Below, in pieces: positions 1 through 52,642 of a stretch of DNA of 64,000 bases. This DNA is from Tetrahymena thermophila SB210 (taxonomy: Eukaryota > Ciliophora > Oligohymenophorea > Hymenostomatida > Tetrahymenidae): the NCBI RefSeq assembly GCF_000189635.1, contig NW_002476033.1, forward strand, positions 1 through 64,000, in the 5' to 3' direction. Each line of letters opens with the position of its first letter. The first letter of the stretch is position 1. The position numbers were made by a program, and so were the translations under genes. Below the pieces are notes generated by a model. It did no database searches, was not told the DNA's origin, and saw only the letters and a program-made list of their open reading frames with translations.

Positions 1-322
1 CCCAACCCCAACCCCAACCCCAACCCCAACCCCAACCCCAACCCCAACCCCAACCCCAACCCCAACCCCAACCCCAACCCCAACCCCAACCCCAACCCCA
101 ACCCCAACCCCAACCCCAACCCCAACCCCAACCCCAACCCCAACCCCAACCCCAACCCCAACCCCAACCCCAACCCCAACCCCCAACCCCAACCCCAACC
201 CCAACCCCAACCCCAACCCCAACCCCAACCCCAACCCCAACCCCAACCCCAACCCCAACCCCAACCCCAACCCCAACCCCAACCCCAACCCCAACCCCAA
301 CCCCAACCCCAACCCCAACCCC
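1..322. repeat. Macronuclear telomere, (CCCCAA)n
   Basis: The first 322 bases are an uninterrupted array of the C-rich strand of the ciliate telomere repeat, CCCCAA (G strand GGGGTT), about 54 copies. This repeat unit and length are typical of Tetrahymena macronuclear chromosome ends, where telomerase adds the repeat to fragmented chromosomes. One unit is irregular: the C-run at 180-184 has five Cs instead of four, which shifts the repeat register for the rest of the array. The array stops abruptly at 322 and unique AT-rich sequence follows. Confidence 0.99.
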
Positions 323-14561: not shown

Positions 14562-16729
14562 TCATGCTTATTCATTTTTTTACCTCGTTATGGCTTGAGT
14601 TGTTGGAACCTAGGCATTCATTTTTGTACTCATTACTACATCGTTATTTGAAAGCCACTTTGTAAATTCTTCAAAACTGATAGTGTTGTCTTTATCGTCA
14701 TCAAATTTATTGAAAATGTATTCGATTTCCGATCTATCTAATGTATTATCAATGCTTTTCATTAACTTTGAAAATTCCTTCATTTCAAGTTTTGAATCGT
14801 GGGAGAAGTCGTACTTCTTGAAAAGATCTTCTAGATCGATACGATTCTTGTATATATTCTATCTCAACTCATTTATAATGTACTTAGCCTTATCTTCCAT
14901 TTAATCGAATTGGCTAGTAAATTTCTAAAAATATCCTTAGAATACAGGATGTTTGTACACATCAGTCCATTCCATTCTATCCTTTTCATCTATTTTTAAG
15001 CATCTAGTTATGAAATCCTTGGAGAGATCAGAGACATTGTATGCAGGGTCGAACTCAAGAGGTTTTGTTTAAATGTTCTTTACTAGTTGGTATTATGAGT
15101 TAGCAGTGTAAGGAGTTTTTCCGTAAAGCATTTCATAAAAAATGAAAGCAAGTGACCATAAATCGCTCTTTGCTGTCTTTTGATTTTATTAAAATTTAAA
15201 AAATTTAACTTATTTCCAAAGCAATAAACATGTTTTTAATTTTATTATTTCATTTTTAAAAAATGATCTCCATTTATTTAGCTCGAATGAAAAATTAGAT
15301 TTCTTTTTGCTTTTTAAAATTTTTACTATTCTATTTGATTTATATCACTATTTTTATCTAATATTAAATTGGCTAAATTAATAATTTATTATGCAATAAA
15401 ATGTATAACAAGCAGCTTAAAAAATTTAATATTTGGTTTCGATTAAATTAAAAATAGGTGACTTAGTAAGAGCTAGCTAGCTTCATAGTTTTTTATAATA
15501 TTTATAACCTACTGAAGAAATTTTTTAAATTAAAATTTGATAACAATATTAACTTTATTCATAATATATATTTATCATAAACTCACTATTAAAAATTTAA
15601 ATATTCCTTTGTTGTTTGAATTTATTTTCTATATTTTTAAAAAAAATAGTTTCGTGCTTTGTTTTGCTTTTTTCATATTTGATGTAAAATAAATCAAAAA
15701 ACCTTTTATTTGTTCAATACTTTAAAATGCTTATTGTTTGATCAAAGACCTTTGGATTTAAATTCAGAAAGGGAAATAATTATAAATGCTGTTTTTTAAA
15801 AGTTGATTGCCTATTGAGGTTAATTAGTTAGTTTTACTAATATTTTGCTTATTGCAAACTTTTATCTTTTGAAGTTTTTCTTTTATTTTTCCAATTATTA
15901 AAAACTAATAAAAACTAAACAAGACAAAATTTCAAAATTCAGCGAGGGATATTATAAATTTTTAAAAAGTATTGATGTAAGCTTGTTTGCTTCGTCTTAG
16001 TATCTTGTGAAGTACATTCAAAAATTGGAGCTGAAACAGTGAAAAACAAAAAATGAAATGAATATTTTTATATTTATTTACATATTTTTCATGCATAAGA
16101 ATCTAAGGGCTCATATAAAGGGGAGTACCAACCAAGGAGGTAAGCATTTATCTTTAGAAGTTATCAACAGTACGAGCGAAACCAAAGTCTGCAAGCTTGT
16201 GCTAATTGCCCTTGATTAATATATTTTCAGGCTTGAGATCTCTATGAATGATACCATTCTTTAGGAGATCCATGAAGCCATTCAATAAATCCTTCATGAC
16301 ATTGAGGGATTCTTGTTCAGAAAGATTCTTTCTTTTTTTAAGTTCAGAACGGAAATCGCCTCCGTCACAATATTCCTAAATTATATAATAATTGTTGGAT
16401 GTTTCCAATACATCAATCAAGTCAACAACGTATTCGCTCTTTAACTTCTTCATAATTTAGATTTCTGAAAAAAGACCGTTCATTAAATATTCATCATTTT
16501 GAATCTACTTTTTCTCAATCATTTTGATTGCCACCAATTGTCCATTTTCGGTATTCTTTCCTTTAAAAACTTTACCGAAAGAACCTTGTCCTAATACACT
16601 TGAAAGCTAGAAATGATATTTGTCAATCTTCTTTGTTTCTTAATTATTGTTCTATTTGTTTTATAAAATAATATAAGTTTATTCTCATTTTACATTTGTT
16701 TTTAAAAACATTTTTGTGCAGTTGGTCAT
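14562..16729 (-). CDS. EF-hand protein kinase (CDPK/ULK-like, 406 aa)
   Basis: Three exons (16729-16694, 16651-16082, 15176-14562) join in phase to 407 codons. The catalytic domain has the Gly loop LGQGSFGKVF, the ATP-binding lysine in VAIKMI, the catalytic loop HRDLKPEN, the magnesium motif DFG and an activation segment ending GTPLYMSPQIL, then DLWSLAF. Two EF-hands follow, with loops DFSHDSKLEMKE and DDDKDNTISFEE, so Ca2+ should regulate the kinase. Classic CDPKs have four EF-hands; this one has two, and its activation segment looks like the ULK/ATG1 branch of ciliate kinases. The second intron, 15177-16081, is 905 bases, far longer than its neighbours. A different first exon beginning at ATG 16889 (MRKRANTLFK...) with donor near 16788 also joins in phase and avoids a 42-base intron, so the start is uncertain. 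Confidence 0.87.
15177..16081 (-). other. Unusually long (905-base) kinase intron
   Basis: The donor follows the codons for HEKY and the acceptor precedes TAKSDLWSLAF, phase 0 on both sides, so the splice is convincing. At 905 bases it is about fifteen times the usual intron in this window. Its sequence is AT-rich with a few more mixed stretches (about 15455-15520 and 15930-16060). No open frame or clear structured RNA is visible in it. Confidence 0.8.
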
Positions 16730-37091: not shown

Positions 37092-40076
37092 TCAAACTAT
37101 TTAACTGATTGTTTATTTCGTTTCTGAATTATTATTTGAATATTTTTACAACTCAATTGCATTTTCTGTTTCTTAATCTTCAACTTATTTTAATGGAGTG
37201 GTAATGATTTCATCTAAGGATAAATATTTATCACATTTTTCTTTTGTGCTTTACTTTGAAAGAATTTATGTTGATATTTATGATACGTCAGCATTTTAAT
37301 CTGCTTAATTTCTATTTTCACAATCTTTACAATTTTCTTTTTCAAATAGAATAATTTCTGATTATTAAAATTTAAACGATTTTTTTTCATAATGCTTACT
37401 TCCTGATTCTTCTTCATTACGATTATTAAATTTTTACTAACTGTTTTACAATTAGTTTTCATGGTTTACAAAATCTTCTTTCTCATTTGAATATTTTTCA
37501 ATATAAATTTTTTGAGTTTTCTATGTCATTTTTAGATTTAGTCGATTTTCTTTAATATTCTTTAACTCTTGGTTTTCAATTTCATCTTTATCTAGAGTAT
37601 TATCTTCATTAAAATCTATTTGTTTTACAATTTTTTCAGGACTCTTAGTTTCTTCATTCTATTGTCCTTGATTTAAAATTTAAATTTCTCCTTTCTCTTA
37701 TATTAAATCTTCTTAGTATTCTTTGAAGTTAAGACTTTTATTTGAATTTGGAATTTCTTTTTAAGTTGATCCGAAAAAAGTTGAATGACTTTCACTTTTG
37801 TTATCGCTATGTATACTCTTAGCTTGAGATTTTTTTTCTGTTGAATACATTAGCTTAAATTGTGTTATTAGGTTTTCTATATCAGAGAGAGGAAGGTTTT
37901 ACTATTGAAATTGCTTTGCTTTTGGAGGGGTAACAAGAAGCCTATTTTCATATCCTTTCTAGGGTCCAGACCACAAATTCAAAGAATAGAATGAATTAGT
38001 TGTGCAATTTTGAGGTTATGGAAATGGCTAAGATACATGTTTATTTATTTCAGAATTTTGTTCCTGATTACTGAAATTTCCATTGCAAAGTGTCTTATTT
38101 GTTTTGATTCCACAAATTTCATTTACCCCCTAAGATATTTATTGATTCCTACTTGGTAATTATTATTATTATTATTACTGTTGTTAAAACACATTTGAAG
38201 GTTTTTAAATTACATTAAAGTTATTTAAAGTTAAGCCCTAAGGTTGTTAAAAAACCATAGATTTCTAAAGAAAATTTATTTGATGGGGAAAATAAAAACT
38301 TTATTATTGTTATTTTGATTCTGATTAAAGAACAACACTTTATTAATATTTAGATTCTTCCTTAGAATTTAATTAATATTCAAATTATTTTTCCTTTTCA
38401 CACTTTGCTTCGTACTTGTTGTGCTCTTGTGTACATTATTACTACTAAAAATATGTTTATTAATTTTAAGTCTGATCACTCTGCATTTGATTTTAAGAAT
38501 CATCTTAAGACTCAATTAGCTGACTTCTCTGAGTATTATTATTATTATTATCTATTAAAAACTATTACATGTTATTTTTAGGATAATGAAACTAATTTTA
38601 TAGCTCATTTTATAGTGGCTAACCGCTAACTTAGGGAAAGTTAAGCAAATGTGGGGTTTAATTTAAATTTTATGAAACAGCTGGATTTTTTTATTGTTGC
38701 AGGAGTAATTATTGTTAATACATCATAAAATGCATCTATCTTTACTAATAAATTTCTTATTAAGAAATAAGTATGTTACCATTGATTTGAGATGAATTAT
38801 CTGGTTGTTGGTTTTAAGATATGTTTTATTTAAATTAAAATGGTAATTAGAAATTTTAACTTTCAAATTAACAGGGTTGTTAATACTGTGATTAATTAGA
38901 GATTTAGTTAAAATTGTACTGAAAATTTTGTTTAAATTGTTGCTAATTATTTAAATCATTTAACTTTGAAATTTGGGAGGAATTATATAGCTGTTACTAA
39001 TTTTAATTTTAAAGATATTAATATTAGTTTTACTTGAAATCATTGAATTTTTAGTTATTATTTGGATAAAAAAGCTAAGGAGTGTTGAGATTAATGCACT
39101 CGCTTTATAAGCTTTAATTAAATTAAAAAGAAGCGTTTTAATTAGCACCTTAATTGGCTAAATAGCTGTTATTAAAAGATCCCTTAGAAGTTTAAGCATC
39201 TTGGTTATAGCTAGTTTGTAATACACTTGGATTAGGATTATTTATATTAACCATGTTAATTTATGTTCCCAAGGGAGCTCCATTAGCCATGGTAAAGCTT
39301 GGTTATGGCTCCTTATTTTCCTTTTCTGAATTGGCTTTTTTAAGATTCATATTTAACAAAGGGATAAATGGTTATTAAAACTATTAATTTTGAGAGTGAG
39401 ATTTCTAAATTGCCTATTATTACTGCTGAATTCGATGATAGATTTAGTGATTTTATTATTGCTATTCTTGAGCAATTTCATAGTTGATTAATTAAGGTGT
39501 TGGAATTACTAACTAAGGATTGAAAGTGGAATTTAATTTGTCTTATGAGCAAATCATCATATTTTATATGTAATTTTATTGCTTAGTTTAGATTCTACAT
39601 CTGTTGCATTCATTTCTGAATGAAAAATTTAAATTATTACAAATTAAACAAATCCAATCTCCTGCCCGCATAGTAGTAGTAGTAGCATTATTGCCATTGA
39701 AGTTACTGTTTCCAGAGGAAGTATTGTTATTAGAGTTTTATCCTTTGCTTTATCTATTAGTATGGATTGCTTAATTTTTATTAATGATATTACTATTGTT
39801 AAAATTTTAACTTAATGCCTGATTCTAATTCTATTGGCTATTTAATATCTATTTTTAGATATGCTAATGGTTTCCGTATGCACTCTACTAAATATTATAT
39901 GCAAAGGTTTAAGGTTAGATAAGTTGAGTATCTACAGCACCTTCTATCTGTGCTTTTACCTGTTATGGATTATATGGCCTAAAATTTTTTTGAGCGTTTT
40001 GAGTAGATGAACTGGTGGTGGAAAAGAAATTTAGTGAGTCTTAGTATGGATAGTCCTGGTTATAATTGGTTTTCAT
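37092..40076 (-). CDS. Q/N-rich protein with RanBP2-type zinc finger (994 aa, intronless)
   Basis: One unbroken code-6 frame of 995 codons runs from ATG 40076 to TGA 37092-37094. Around residues 138-165 there is a RanBP2-type zinc finger, GDWICLICNNLNFSFRNECN then RC: W-x-C-x2-C-x10-C-x2-C with the conserved NF and R. Such fingers bind single-stranded RNA or ubiquitin. The rest is extremely rich in Gln and Asn, with Q-runs, to about residue 660, then a charged lysine/glutamate-rich C-terminal third. Nearly all the glutamines are TAA or TAG. The layout, RNA-binding-type finger plus a long prion-like tract, is that of RNA-granule proteins, which is an inference. It is divergent from the next gene across 1.6 kb. 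Short standard-code ORFs inside it are fragments between TAA/TAG glutamines. Confidence 0.9.
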
Positions 40077-45039: not shown

Positions 45040-48000
45040 TCAATTGAAAAGAATATAACTCAAGCTATCATTTGAAATTGGGTTTTTTAATTCTTTTAGG
45101 TTGTTAATATTGTTAGGGTTGTGTAAGAAGGGCAAAGGGTTTTAAATGAAATTTTTTTTCTGCTAGCAAGGATTTTTCATGTTTTTTTCGTTTTGCTTAT
45201 CAATATCATCATCCCAATATCCCTTATCTGACAAGTAATTTGGTGTAAATTCAAGTATTTGATTATCTAAATAGCTTGCCTCTTCTCCGATGCTAGGCGA
45301 GGCTTCTAAATTAGGGTCATTTTTTTACTTTAAATTGCTAGGTGATAAATTTTACATATTTAAATTTGATTCCTAAATTATTTACTATTATTATTGATTA
45401 TAATTCAAATTTAAATCTGGTGCTTAATGGTTGTTTATGTTGTAAAAGTAAATATAGTTAGGATTTATGAGATTTTCTTTCTTAGGTATATCATTATTTA
45501 AGCCAACAAAATTCAAAGAATAGTCAAATAAAGAAATTTGATTTTCATTGTTTTGAATTTTAGTTTCAGGTGGTTCGTTAGCATCAATTTTACAGTTTCC
45601 TAAATTTCTTTGTAGATTAAATGTATTTTTTAATTATTCTTCTGCTTCTTTTGATGCAAGATTCGTAATTAAGTCTTAGTTTTACTTCTGGATTTATATC
45701 ACAGGGAAGCTAGAATTTTGCCAAACAGTTTGAGCTTAACTCTGATAATTTGTAGATTGACTTTAGTGAGCTATACTTTCATTACGAGAATATACATAAT
45801 TTTTTAATATTGGTTAATCTAAATTTAAGTTATTCAAGTTTGGTTTAGCTTAAATCTCATTTAAACTAGAAGATTTTTAATAAGTACTAGGTTGTTGTAT
45901 ATTATCAGATATATTTTCTTTGTTATTCTCATTGGCTATTCTTAAGCTTGTTTCAAAATTATTTGATAAAAGGTTTTCTTTTTAGTCAAAGTTATTATTC
46001 TTTGTGTATTCATAAAGACTAAATTAATTTTGAGAGTCTTATCCATTTCTTTATCCAATCAAATTTTGAGTATTTTTTTCGTTATTAAATTCTACTTAAT
46101 AAGCACTTACAACATCTTAATTTATCTAATAATTCATGCTTTGAATATTATTTTGTTTATTGCTTCTTTTTTAATGTTAGGTTATATTTTTTCTATATTC
46201 TTCTAATGGGTCAGGCAAACAATCAAATGGATCTAAAAATTTATTAATTTAATTTTTTTAAGTCTCTTAATCAATTTTTTCATTTTAATTTTCTATTTTG
46301 TCACATTTATTAGAAATTATTTCATTTATTTCTTTATCTTCTTCATTTAAAGGATAGTCTTTTACATAAAGAATATTTTCAACATTTTTTTACAAATTTA
46401 GAAAGATATTTGGATCCAAACTTTTATCTGTGTTTTATAAACAGAAGTTAGTTGCTAACAATTAATTATTATTATTAAAGTTCGCTTCACTTTTCATGAC
46501 AAATTCAAAGTTATTAGAATTCACTCCTTGCATGCATGGCATTTCTTAGTCTATCTTTTATGAGCTTTATGAGTTTTAAAAATTAAATAATCCTTATTTA
46601 AAATCTGTAAAATTGTTGTCTATTACAATTTGATCACTAATTTATTTTTCTTTAAAGTCTTCTTTTTATTAAAAGAAATTTACAGCTCCTGAATTATTTT
46701 CAAAAGATGAAAATTTGTTTAAATTTATTTAACTAGGCTCAAGTAGATTTTCGAATTTATTATTATTGTTGTTTAAATTTAATTAATTTTAACAAATTTT
46801 ATTACCTTAAAAGCTTGGAAATTCTTCTTGATTTTTATTTTTTTATTATTCATTGAGCAAAAAAACCTAGTTTTGAAAATTTTTTGATTGATTAGGAATA
46901 CATTATTATTATAGATCTATTTTTTCCTAACACATAATAGAAACTTCTTCTGATTATTTATTTGATTTGTTTTCTAAATCAAAATTATAATTATTACTTT
47001 GAATATTAACTGATAGCTTTTATGTCTGATTGATTTCTTTTTTTTATTCAGAGGAGTCGAAGCTGCTCAAATTTTAAATTAAGTTCTATGATTTTAAATA
47101 TTCTTGCACATAAAATTTAAAATTTTAATCATATTTTTTAAATATTAAAATTAAGTCTTCTAATAGCACCTTCTGCTTATTATCTGGAGACTTAACCAAG
47201 TTATATTTTATGCTCAATTTCAATATAAAATCAAAAAAGATAGAATGATCACCTTTACCCAAATATGTTTGCACAAATTATTAAAATAGAGTCTTATCCA
47301 AGCATCCAAAATTATAAGTAAACATTCTCTTGTTAAACTATTCAAAATCTTATTTTGAAAATTCAAGGAGCTAATAGAGTTTTGCATAATTTTCGTCACT
47401 AAGATTTTATTCAGATTATTCAGATGTCTTCTCAGAAATGTCACTTTTAAAATCAATATTTTGATTTATATTTTTTATAATGGCTTAATTTCCACTTTTT
47501 AAATCAAATTAGTATTTATTTTTATGATTAATTTAGTTTTCACTTTTTAATGACAATAAATTCTCATTATTTTACTATAAATTTAAATCAATTTTGTTTT
47601 CATTTTTATGATCATTTTCATTTTTTAACGAAATTTAGTTTTAATTTTATAAAACTTAGTTTTCATTTTTTTAGATAATTTGATTTTCATTTTTAAATGT
47701 TTTATCATTTACATTTCTTGAAGGAAATTTATTTTCATTCATTTAGAAAATTTAATTTTTGTTTTTTTATGCTACTTATTTTTCTGATTGCTGAGGCTTT
47801 AAATTAAGTTAATCTTTTTAAATTTCATTATCGCTAATAGTTGGATGCATTTCTTTTTGAGTAGAAGGAGTGAAAAGACAGCTTTAAGGAGCTTAGAAGT
47901 AATTGTCTTCAAATAATTCTTAATATGAAATTCTTTTAGTGGGTTCTATCTGAAGCATTTTTTTAATTAGACTTTTAGCTTTTTCTGATACGCTTATTTA

Positions 48001-49175
48001 CTCTTAAAAACGTATTGGTATTTTTTTTATCTTTTCTAAAAGGTCGTACTGAGAAGTTACCCTTGGCCAAGGAGTGCATCCATAAAGTAGCTCATAAAAA
48101 ATAATTCCAACTGACCAAATATCACATTTGCTATCCTATAATCATGAAAAAACGATTTAAAAATATTTTAATTAAATGAATTAGAAATTATTTTTATTTT
48201 TATGATATTGATTTTTTAAAATATTTAGTGATCACTTATTTGAAATTTATGTTAAAAAAATTTCCTACATGAAAAATAATCAAATTAAAATTGATTATTT
48301 TTCTTAAAATTGATAAAATAATCTGCGAAACTTTAATTAATATTTAAAATCTGATCAAAAAATCTTGAAGTCTGAGTTTCAGATTTACCAAAGCATTTTT
48401 GAAATCAAAATAATTTGCATTTTAATATATTTAAATATCAATAAGATTTCTTTTTAACATTTTATGTTTAAATATTTAATTAGTTTTTTAAAAAAAAGAA
48501 TAGTAAATAAAATAATTTTGTTGCAATTTTTACATAAGGTTTTCCAAGCAATATTTGTGGGTCCATATACAAAGGTGTTCCAACTTAAGATTTTATCATA
48601 TCTTGATTGTTTAATATTTTTGCAAATCCAAAATCAGCCAATTTATAAACAAATCCTTAAGGAGTCTAAGCTACTAATATATTTTCAGGCTTTATATCTC
48701 TGTGTACTATTGATCTTTAATACATTTCTTTTAAACCGCTCATTATTTATATCATAATCTATTTTGCTTTGTTTTCTGAAAACTTTTTCTCTTTTTAAAT
48801 TTGTTGTTTGAGGTTACCAGCATTGCAGTAGTCTAAAATCAAGTAATAATTGTTATCCGAAATCAAAAACTCTTTAAGCCTAACTATATTTTCGGATTTC
48901 ATCTACTTTTATACTCCTACTTCCTGGCGGAGAAGCTTTTCAAGGTAATCTTTCTTTCCATTAATTAAATTTTTGCTAATTTATTTAGCTGCCCATACTT
49001 CGTTCTATTTATCTGTACATTTGTATACTACACCAAATGACCCTGACCCAAGAATGTCTTTCATGCAAATTGTGTAGTCTCCAATTTACTTGATAGCATC
49101 TACAAATAAAAACTTTTAAATATAAGGATGATAAAGAAAAATAAAAAAACCTGATGCTCCTTTTTATGGTTTCAT
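45040..49175 (-). CDS. ULK/ATG1-like protein kinase with ~1000-residue Q/N-rich tail (1228 aa)
   Basis: Exons 49175-49151, 49099-48534 and 48135-45040 join in phase to 1229 codons; introns are 51 and 398 bases. The kinase domain (residues about 15-270) has the Gly loop LGSGSFGVVY, the lysine in AAKQIS, HRDIKPEN, DFG, an activation segment ending GTPLYMDPQIL and CDIWSVG. The ending of the activation segment resembles the ULK/ATG1 branch. The last exon carries the C-lobe and then about 950 residues of Q/N-rich sequence, including a stretch with repeated KNENQ-type units (about residues 330-430) and, later, FLDPFDCLPDPLEEY. The tail presumably provides docking or condensation rather than catalysis. 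The 398-base intron lies at the same codon as the long intron of the EF-hand kinase. Confidence 0.9.
48136..48533 (-). other. Long (398-base) intron at the conserved kinase position
   Basis: The donor follows LLGKPY and the acceptor precedes DSKCDIWSVG, phase 0. It interrupts the kinase domain just after the activation segment, as does the 905-base intron of the EF-hand kinase. AT-rich, without visible coding sequence. Confidence 0.85.
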
Positions 49176-50722
49176 GAGTTTTAGGTATTATTTTTATAAC
49201 TATAAAGAATCTAATAAGCCCTTATTTTGCGCAAATATTGTTATTCAAATTATTGTTATTAGATTATTAATTTAAAACACAATCTTTGTGATTTTTTAAA
49301 TCTGTTTGAATTTTAATAACGAAAAATAGTCGCTAATTTAATCATCAAAGTTTTCTAATTTTATTAAAAACTTCTATTAAACTAAAATCCTAATTAAATA
49401 ATGATAAATTTTAAATTCATAGAGAAAATTGAGATGTCAATTAGATTTTTATTTAAATAAGAAAAATATATTTTTTAAATATTTCAAACTCTTTTTTTAA
49501 AAAAATAGAATTATTTTATTTTATTTTTCTTTTTTATTTTTTATTTTTAGATATTTAAATAATAATTATTTTTTTTTCAGTAAATAAAATTTTTTCCAAA
49601 AATAAAAAATATTAAAGAATTATTTAAAAATAGAAAAATTATTACCAGCTCATAAATTTAATTTAATTTAACTTCATAAATAATATATTTTCTAAAATTA
49701 ATTTAGGATCAAATTTAATTTTGTACTTAGCGAATCATTTATTTTAAATCAATTAAGTTATTATATTGTGTAAGTAAATTTTGTAAATATATTTTTTAAA
49801 GGAAATAGATAATGAAAAAAAAATTTGTTTACTTATTTTTTAAACATAATTATTAATTTTTTTAATAAAATTCATGATAAAAATAAGATCATATATGCAC
49901 TTTATACCATATCTAATTAAACATAAAATGTTAATTGAAACTCTCTACTAACTAAGTATAATAAATAAGGTCAGAGTTAGGCTTTAAACTTTTATATTCT
50001 AATTATGAATATTAATATGTTTTATACATACTTTCCTTATTCATTATTTACCTATCATTTCTAATATAAAATATAGAATTTATTTAAAATAATCTTTATT
50101 AAATGATGAAAAAAGTAATTGAGTCATATTTTATATAATTAATATAATGTTACCTTCCTAAAATTCCTAATTTAAAGCTGATAAAGAGATATTTTTTGTA
50201 TGAAAATATATTTTTCAAAATAGGCTATAAATTTATATCATACTGAAAATTAATTTATTAATTTTTCTTTAAAATTGAATAAGGCAATCTAAAAAAATAG
50301 ATAAAGTAAGTGAGGATTATGATAAATATGTAATATGAAATTGTATTACGCATAGTAAAGCTAAAATGTCAATTTTATAAATTAAAACTTTCTTTAGAAA
50401 ATTTGCGGAATAAAAAGAGAGTAAAAACCTCTTTTTATAATGTTTTCATTCAAAAAAATTAATGTTTCGATTTATTATCAACAAGATTGAAATTTATGTG
50501 CGTTATAATTGATATAGCACATTATGAATATACCTGACGCAATTAATAGGTAAGTAATTAAATTTCTAAAAATCTAAAAGTAATTCCTTCTTTTATTTAT
50601 ATGCCACTATTAAAACCAAATAATATTATCTAAAAAAAAAAAAGTTAAAATAAATCTAAATAGCAATATTATTAAAATAATAATAGCACAAAAAACTTAA
50701 GATAAATTTATTAGCCAAATAA
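49176..50722. other. Divergent intergenic region
   Basis: 1.5 kb of AT-rich DNA between divergent genes. No coding frame or element stands out. Confidence 0.4.
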
Positions 50723-51640: not shown

Positions 51641-52159
51641 AATTTTATGAAAATCAATTAATATATTAACAATTTTATTAATAAATGCTTGTTAATCCTG
51701 CATTATATTTACTTTATACCTTGGTTTGAATTTTAATTAATTTTATCAAAAAAAATCTTTTGTTTAAATTGATATTAAATTTTAATTACTGATCAATATA
51801 AGATAATGAAAATTAAATGTGCAAAATTTATTTCGAGCTTAAAAAAGTATTCTATTTCAACCTAAAATTAAAAAGATTTTCATTATAACAGAGGAATTTA
51901 AGTGGCATTTGGCAAAAATATCTTTTTTTAGTGATAATATCTCATTTTTAGGTAATTCATTTAATAAATGATGATAAACTCCATACTTATAGATAGTTAG
52001 GATTATTATGTTGTATTATTTATGAAATTACATAATTTTATGATTTCTTTATTTTCTTTTTTTAATAATTTCTAAATATTCCATAGAATGAATATATTCA
52101 TTATTTGTTCTTTATAAAAAAAAACAAATTACTATCAATTCTTGTATTAAAAAAAAATC
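51641..52159. other. Intergenic region after the acyltransferase
   Basis: 519 AT-rich bases holding the 3' UTR of the acyltransferase gene and the Pol III terminator of the tRNA at its right end. Nothing else is visible. Confidence 0.5.
52149..52157 (-). terminator. Pol III T-run terminator of the tRNA gene
   Basis: On the minus strand nine Ts follow the tRNA 3' end after two bases, the standard RNA polymerase III stop signal. Confidence 0.85.
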
Positions 52160-52231
52160 AGGTCCCACTGGGATTCGAACCCAGGTCAAGGGATTTAAAG
52201 TCCCCAGTACTAACCACTATACTATGGAACC
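52160..52231 (-). tRNA. tRNA-Gln (anticodon UUA), reads UAA as glutamine
   Basis: A complete 72-base cloverleaf on minus. The acceptor arm pairs GGTTCCA with TGGGACC. The anticodon loop is CTTTAAA between GGGGA and TCCCT, which puts TTA at positions 34-36. The T arm is CTGGG-TTCGAAT-CCCAG. The internal promoter boxes are TAGTATAGTGG (A) and GGTTCGAATCC (B). A tRNA with anticodon UUA pairs with UAA, and by wobble can read UAG; in ciliates this tRNA is charged with glutamine and accounts for the reassigned stop codons (established knowledge). The 3' CCA is not encoded, as usual in eukaryotes, and there is no intron. It is the decoding partner of almost every protein gene in this window. Confidence 0.96.
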
Positions 52232-52523
52232 GGTTCTAACAATCTACTATTTTAAATTTTATACATTTTTTAAAATGTAATTTTATATTAGAAAATAAAG
52301 TTTCTTAATTTAAAATTTAAAATATAAATTAAATGTGGTTGATTGAGCTTTAATTTATTGGAGTAATATTATTTTTATAACTCTGAGTTATTTAATTACT
52401 TGATAACTTAAAATTAATTATAATAGATTTTATCTTTTTCAAAATTTATAATCAATTATTAAAATTAAAGTTTTATTTGTTATCAAATTTTATTTTTTAT
52501 TAAGTTAAATTAAAAAGTAAAAA
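52232..52523. other. Spacer between tRNA and 5S genes
   Basis: About 290 AT-rich bases. The right end carries two T5 runs on minus (52519-52523 and 52512-52516) that serve as the 5S terminator. Confidence 0.6.
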
Positions 52524-52642
52524 GGTTGTCGACACTGGGACTTCCCAAGCGGTCCCCCACCTTAGTACTAACCCAGCCTTAAGGCGCTTAACTTCGGAGT
52601 TCGAATGGGATCCGGTGTTTTCACCTTAGTATGGCCGACAAC
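52524..52642 (-). rRNA. 5S ribosomal RNA
   Basis: The minus strand reads GTTGTCGGCCATACTAAGGT at the 5' end and closes with GTGTCGACAACC, so helix I pairs GTTGTCG with CGACAAC. The conserved internal stretch CCGGATCCCATTCGAACTCC and the GAAGTTAAGCGCC box C region (internal TFIIIA/Pol III control region) are intact. The length is about 119-120 bases and T-runs follow the 3' end. It is a component of the large ribosomal subunit, transcribed by RNA polymerase III. It appears as a single copy here, not in a tandem array, and lies 292 bases upstream of the tRNA on the same strand. Confidence 0.97.

Follow-up and report, generated by a model that had tools for sequence, protein, structure and literature searches.

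Genomic setting of the locus

The window, by which we mean the whole stretch of 64,000 nucleotides analysed, covers bases 1–64000 of a contig that is 160,987 bases long; the assembly as a whole has 445 contigs and amounts to 101.0 Mb. The features relevant to this report are given below.

1..322, plus strand: CCCCAA telomere repeats, macronuclear chromosome end (from the sequence)
37092..40076, minus strand: glutamine-rich ORF of 994 aa with 104 TAA, 30 TAG and 54 CAA/CAG codons, open under code 6 from M to stop
52149..52157, minus strand: run of nine T, 2 nt past the gene end, putative Pol III terminator (from the flank sequence)
52160..52231, minus strand: tRNA-Gln(UUA) gene, 72 nt, no intron (ARAGORN; Rfam RF00005, 67.9 bits; stems read directly)
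52171..52181, minus strand: B-box internal Pol III promoter element GGTTCGAATCC (pattern match to the box consensus)
52196..52198, minus strand: anticodon UUA, reading UAA and, by wobble according to print, UAG (direct reading, ARAGORN)
52214..52224, minus strand: A-box-like internal Pol III promoter element TAGTATAGTGG (pattern match to the box consensus)
52524..52642, minus strand: 5S rRNA gene, 292 bases upstream of the tRNA and on the same strand (Rfam RF00001, 117.2 bits)

The CCCCAA telomere, the GC content (about 22% in the window), the identity of uL3 and the eRF1 motifs mark the genome as a macronucleus of the Tetrahymena type. Residues 1–184 of the genome's uL3 are identical to chain BB of PDB 4v8p, which we take to be the Tetrahymena thermophila 60S structure. 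For uL1, 24 PDB chains matched at an E-value of 1e-40 or better, and 4v8p was not among them. Other parts of the genome contain 40 or more identical copies of the 5S rRNA gene. The unit formed by the tRNA and the upstream 5S gene (52160–52642) is duplicated on contig C419, where the block, with both genes included, shows about 83% identity in an alignment of 1,281 bases and the tRNA and 5S genes are identical. Among the loci examined, a 5S gene was found near the tRNA only in the window and on C419.

The tRNA gene and its UUA anticodon

The minus strand at 52160–52231 carries a complete 72-nt tRNA gene with anticodon UUA and without an intron, just where the earlier note had placed one. ARAGORN, run with the bacterial code, labels exactly these positions (minus strand) 'tRNA-Stop (tta)', and the Rfam tRNA model RF00005 is matched there at all 71 of its positions (67.9 bits, E-value 1.2e-12, gathering score 29). 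Direct reading gives an acceptor stem of seven pairs, one of them U-G, an anticodon stem of five pairs, one of them G-U, a T stem of five pairs, the anticodon loop CUUUAAA and U as the discriminator (last) base. The minimum-energy fold lacks a clean cloverleaf and has no exceptional stability (z −1.18, with 24 of 200 shuffles equally stable), and the centroid fold is nearer to one. The covariance-model match is a better test than a free-energy fold and outweighs the unconvincing fold. This match runs end to end, and the gene has the cloverleaf with a UUA anticodon that belongs to a ciliate tRNA-Gln(UUA), a point that the energy fold by itself does not decide. We read the feature, with a probability of about 0.97, as one of the ordinary gene copies for the cytoplasmic tRNA-Gln(UUA) of Tetrahymena, to all appearance intact; this tRNA inserts glutamine at UAA and, by wobble, UAG.

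This tRNA is long known, the gene is one of many identical copies, and it adds no new biology. The T. thermophila tRNA-Gln(UUA) is reportedly the subject of Kuchino 1985 and Hanyu 1986. According to section 10 of PMC4967479, all model ciliates have such tRNAs, with Eisen 2006, Hanyu 1986 and Kuchino 1985 cited there. A passage of PMC10553269 reports, from experiment, that the UUA tRNA of T. thermophila reads UAA as well as UAG and the CUA tRNA only UAG, and a passage of PMC5304391 agrees on the limitation of the CUA tRNA to UAG. The decoding of UAR as glutamine in T. thermophila needs UUA and CUA glutamine tRNAs beside the usual UUG, according to a passage of PMC4695839, and the species has 710 tRNA genes, according to one of PMC3341644. 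The window gene resembles the T. thermophila tRNA-Gln(UUA) of these passages in its UUA anticodon, its glutamine identity, the decoding of both UAA and UAG and its CUA and UUG companions, and no feature in which the two differ came to light. Ichthyophthirius also has UAA- and UAG-reading tRNA genes, but in fewer copies (6 and 2; passage of PMC3341644), and Oligohymenophorea sp. PL0344 has tRNAs for UAA and UAG as sense codons which, however, carry lysine and glutamate instead of glutamine (passage of PMC10553269).

Transcription would be carried out by Pol III from the internal A and B boxes and would stop at the T run. Both boxes (judged by their consensus) and the terminator are intact, and a run of at least four T within 25 nt downstream is present in 28 of 28 intact UUA genes and in 7 of 7 CUA genes. 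An upstream stretch like GGNATATTAGCCAA, as well as GTGTTC directly 5' of the gene, appears by eye to be common to many UUA copies; the window copy, also by eye, has no GGNATATTAGCCAA-like stretch. It is unlikely, in our judgement, that the window copy is transcriptionally silent and that other copies do the work. Silence would fit the lack of the upstream TATTAGCC-like element seen by eye in many other copies, the position of the gene in a duplicated block common to C419, and the existence of at least 27 other intact copies, which makes this one dispensable. Against it stand the intact promoter boxes and terminator and the identity of the window tRNA to 26 others, even though the duplicated block that contains it is only 83% identical; a tRNA kept identical in such a block is therefore under constraint or subject to gene conversion.

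The family of glutamine tRNA genes

A BLAST search of the assembly with the window tRNA returned 41 matches, all of the glutamine kind (UUA, CUA or UUG). They comprise 27 identical UUA genes (the window's included), one UUA gene with one change (on C417), seven identical CUA genes, one CUA anticodon on a UUA body, two degenerate UUA copies and three UUG genes, the 14 non-identical matches having been read individually. Intact UUA genes number at least 28, of which 27 are identical, and lie on 12 contigs. A pattern scan, with 28 UUA-type and 13 UUG-type sequences, agrees with BLAST. A search with the UUG tRNA returned 13 identical genes, of which three were read in sequence and flanks, and two CUG genes were read. 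As the searches score their best candidates, all of these are minimum numbers. With variants and degenerate copies excluded, the glutamine tRNA genes UUA:CUA:UUG:CUG stand at no fewer than 28:7:13:2 (56, 14, 26 and 4%). The body of the window tRNA is related to the organism's ordinary tRNA-Gln, with 82% identity to tRNA-Gln(UUG) and 94% to the CUA tRNA.

A tandem cluster on contig C94 (539301–545516) contains 11 intact UUA genes, the two degenerate UUA copies and the CUA anticodon on a UUA body; the latter also has one base of its D-loop changed and resembles either a gene whose anticodon has switched or one in decay. Two patterns did not find tRNA-Glu: the first matched 72 places, made up of 28 UUA-type and 13 UUG-type sequences, 30 that resemble tRNA-Asp (GTC in the loop) and one other, the second none. 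In a tRNA family search, the best 63 of 6,697 candidates were scored, and no count given here rests on these. An exact 35-base pattern taken from the tRNA gave no match in the viral contigs searched.

These counts bear on several claims of the earlier note. The identity of the UUA tRNA as a glutamine tRNA that reads UAA and, by wobble, UAG accords with the all-glutamine BLAST matches and with the experiment reported in the passage of PMC10553269. As regards UAG, wobble reading by the UUA tRNA holds according to that passage, though the UUA tRNA does not do this alone, as a CUA tRNA is present in seven identical copies plus one variant. The proposed dependence of the chromosome and its protein genes on the window copy has to be given up in view of at least 28 intact UUA genes on 12 contigs, in addition to at least 7 CUA, 13 UUG and 2 CUG genes; it is only trivially true that a chromosome in need of this tRNA also encodes it.

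Use of TAA and TAG as sense codons

The 994-residue ORF at 37092–40076 (minus strand) is indeed open under code 6 from M to stop. Its frame contains 104 TAA, 30 TAG and a single TGA, which is its end, and the other two frames contain 7 and 33 TGA. TAA and TAG supply 134 of its 188 glutamines (71%). The centre of the protein had been described as nearly all TAA/TAG glutamines, which holds in neither of its possible senses: across residues 201–700, 70 TAA and 18 TAG codons compare with 36 CAA/CAG (88 of 124, or 71%), and glutamine accounts for 124 of the 500 residues, a quarter. Five window ORFs with 4,821 codons, chosen as open under code 6 and hence free of inner TGA by construction, use TAA, TAG, CAA and CAG in the ratio 336:81:109:32 (60, 15, 20 and 6% of glutamine codons). 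The 417 in-frame TAA and TAG codons of these ORFs, with TGA as the stop, and the higher summed score of glutamine over glutamate (below) bear out genetic code 6 as the earlier note had proposed. In the comparison that it had suggested, genome-wide UUA, CUA and UUG gene counts of at least 28:7:13 (plus at least two CUG) stand against the 336:81:109:32 codon use of the five window ORFs.

Glutamine or glutamate

In window ORFs, TAA/TAG were read in turn as ten different residues, rather than all twenty, and the resulting translations were scored against Pfam; five further regions were scored for glutamine and glutamate only. Glutamine was best in kinase domain B (169.8 bits, followed by serine at 165.5 and glutamate at 165.2) and exceeded glutamate in ChAPs (62.8 against 61.4), while kinase domain A scored higher with glutamate (174.2 against 172.6, a difference of −1.6). 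The sum over the three domains was 405.2 for glutamine, 400.8 for glutamate, 394.2 for lysine and lower for the others, making glutamine the best of the ten. In the five further regions, glutamine minus glutamate amounted to +0.4 for DAGAT, +0.6 for the C-terminal part of kinase A, −2.2 for that of kinase B, +1.5 for Kelch and +0.5 for the EF-hand. Over all eight regions glutamine leads by 5.2 bits, with six favouring it and two favouring glutamate; one domain was taken per region (for 14565–15344 the kinase domain, its EF-hand_7 being tied), and the eight are not fully independent, since 15938–16684 with 14565–15344, and 48441–49244 with 45043–48141, apparently form one kinase gene each. The earlier note had seen in the window an internal proof of the code without outside data. 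It is not one, because an anticodon does not name its amino acid and the margin of glutamine over glutamate is only 5.2 bits, with two of eight regions on the other side. The window by itself favours glutamine but is no proof; stronger support comes from the rest of the genome and from print.

Contig C167 (545400–547400) carries a second, divergent eRF1, a paralogue with the motifs SIKN and YSCNTIF. Of the ten residues tried, glutamine scored highest in the sum of its three Pfam domains, 1.3 bits above glutamate, though in one of them, eRF1_1, lysine led with 36.9 against 36.0 for glutamine. Compared with human eRF1, its 22 TAA positions meet lysine five times, glutamate four times and glutamine once, and its TAG positions meet glutamine in four of six cases. 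The paralogue is too divergent to decide the meaning of TAA, because its CAA/CAG positions, used as a control, also meet glutamine in only 2 of 13 cases. The glutamine of its GGQ motif is encoded by TAG, and the conserved glutamine of EIQVNGG in uL3 is encoded by TAA, this residue being glutamine in all three other uL3 chains with an alignment shown. These two positions weigh more than the domain score sums.

In peritrich ciliates UAR means glutamate, and a window tRNA charged in that way would account for the two of eight regions in which glutamate scores above glutamine; the two residues are, moreover, hard to distinguish in alignments. Such a reading is scarcely credible in view of the summed margins for glutamine in the eight regions and in the eRF1 paralogue, modest as they are, the 82% identity of the UUA tRNA to the genome's own tRNA-Gln(UUG), and the GGQ and EIQVNGG glutamines encoded by TAG and TAA. 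Species identity, through the uL3 match to 4v8p, points the same way, and so do the passages of PMC10553269, PMC5304391 and PMC4695839. On this evidence TAA and TAG mean glutamine here.

Termination factors and a model of decoding

In the canonical eRF1 of the genome, on contig C172, the NIKS and YxCxxxF regions are altered, with KATNIKD on one exon and YFCDSKF on another, and its GGQ exon was confirmed as eRF1. The best PF03463 match, on contig C64, was rejected as an eRF1, as its N-terminus reads like Pelota/Dom34, a relative of eRF1. The start of this gene lies some 550 bases in from a contig end of telomere-like repeats. KATNIKD and YFCDSKF form the T. thermophila row of the eRF1 motif table in PMC4695839, a passage of which also describes conflicting results on the loss of UAA/UAG recognition by Tetrahymena eRF1 and notes that tRNA competition may matter. 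The SIKN motif is reported for T. thermophila eRF1-2 in a passage of PMC2613156, where the paralogue is described. Because the GGQ glutamine of this termination factor is a TAG codon, making the paralogue needs the reading of a former stop codon.

In the decoding that we envisage, GlnRS would charge the UUA tRNA with glutamine, which the tRNA would insert at UAA and, by wobble, at UAG. A 2'-O-methylated wobble uridine is expected of a ciliate tRNA-Gln(UUA). The dedicated tRNA-Gln(CUA) would share the work at UAG, and the UUG and CUG isoacceptors would take CAA and CAG. UGA would be left for termination, through a modified eRF1, through suppressor tRNAs that outcompete eRF1 at UAA and UAG, or through both. 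We infer, or take from print, the transcription of the window copy, the charging with glutamine, the modified wobble base and the reading of UAG.

On C172 (728200–730818), the canonical eRF1 gene (KATNIKD, YFCDSKF, GGQ) is followed after 293 bases by a tRNA-Gln(UUA) gene on the same strand that is identical to the window's. Chance is the simplest reading of this adjacency. Tetrahymena has about 26,000 genes, and with the 19 UUA/CUA sites counted from the BLAST matches and their 38 flanks the post hoc chance of one named gene as a neighbour is about 0.0015. If the adjacency were old and had been kept, it would unite the competitors for UAA and UAG, release factor and suppressor tRNA, and could point to the site at which the altered code became fixed, which we consider very improbable. 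A literature search by titles and abstracts found no report of the linkage, and we do not claim it as unpublished.

Significance

The gene illustrates the wrong labels that programs set to the bacterial code give to such tRNAs, 'tRNA-Stop' for UUA and 'tRNA-Pyl' for CUA, and it confirms both the type of organism and the genetic code in use. Set against codon use, the counts of glutamine tRNA genes offer a simple example, under a reassigned code, of gene dosage in step with codon demand.
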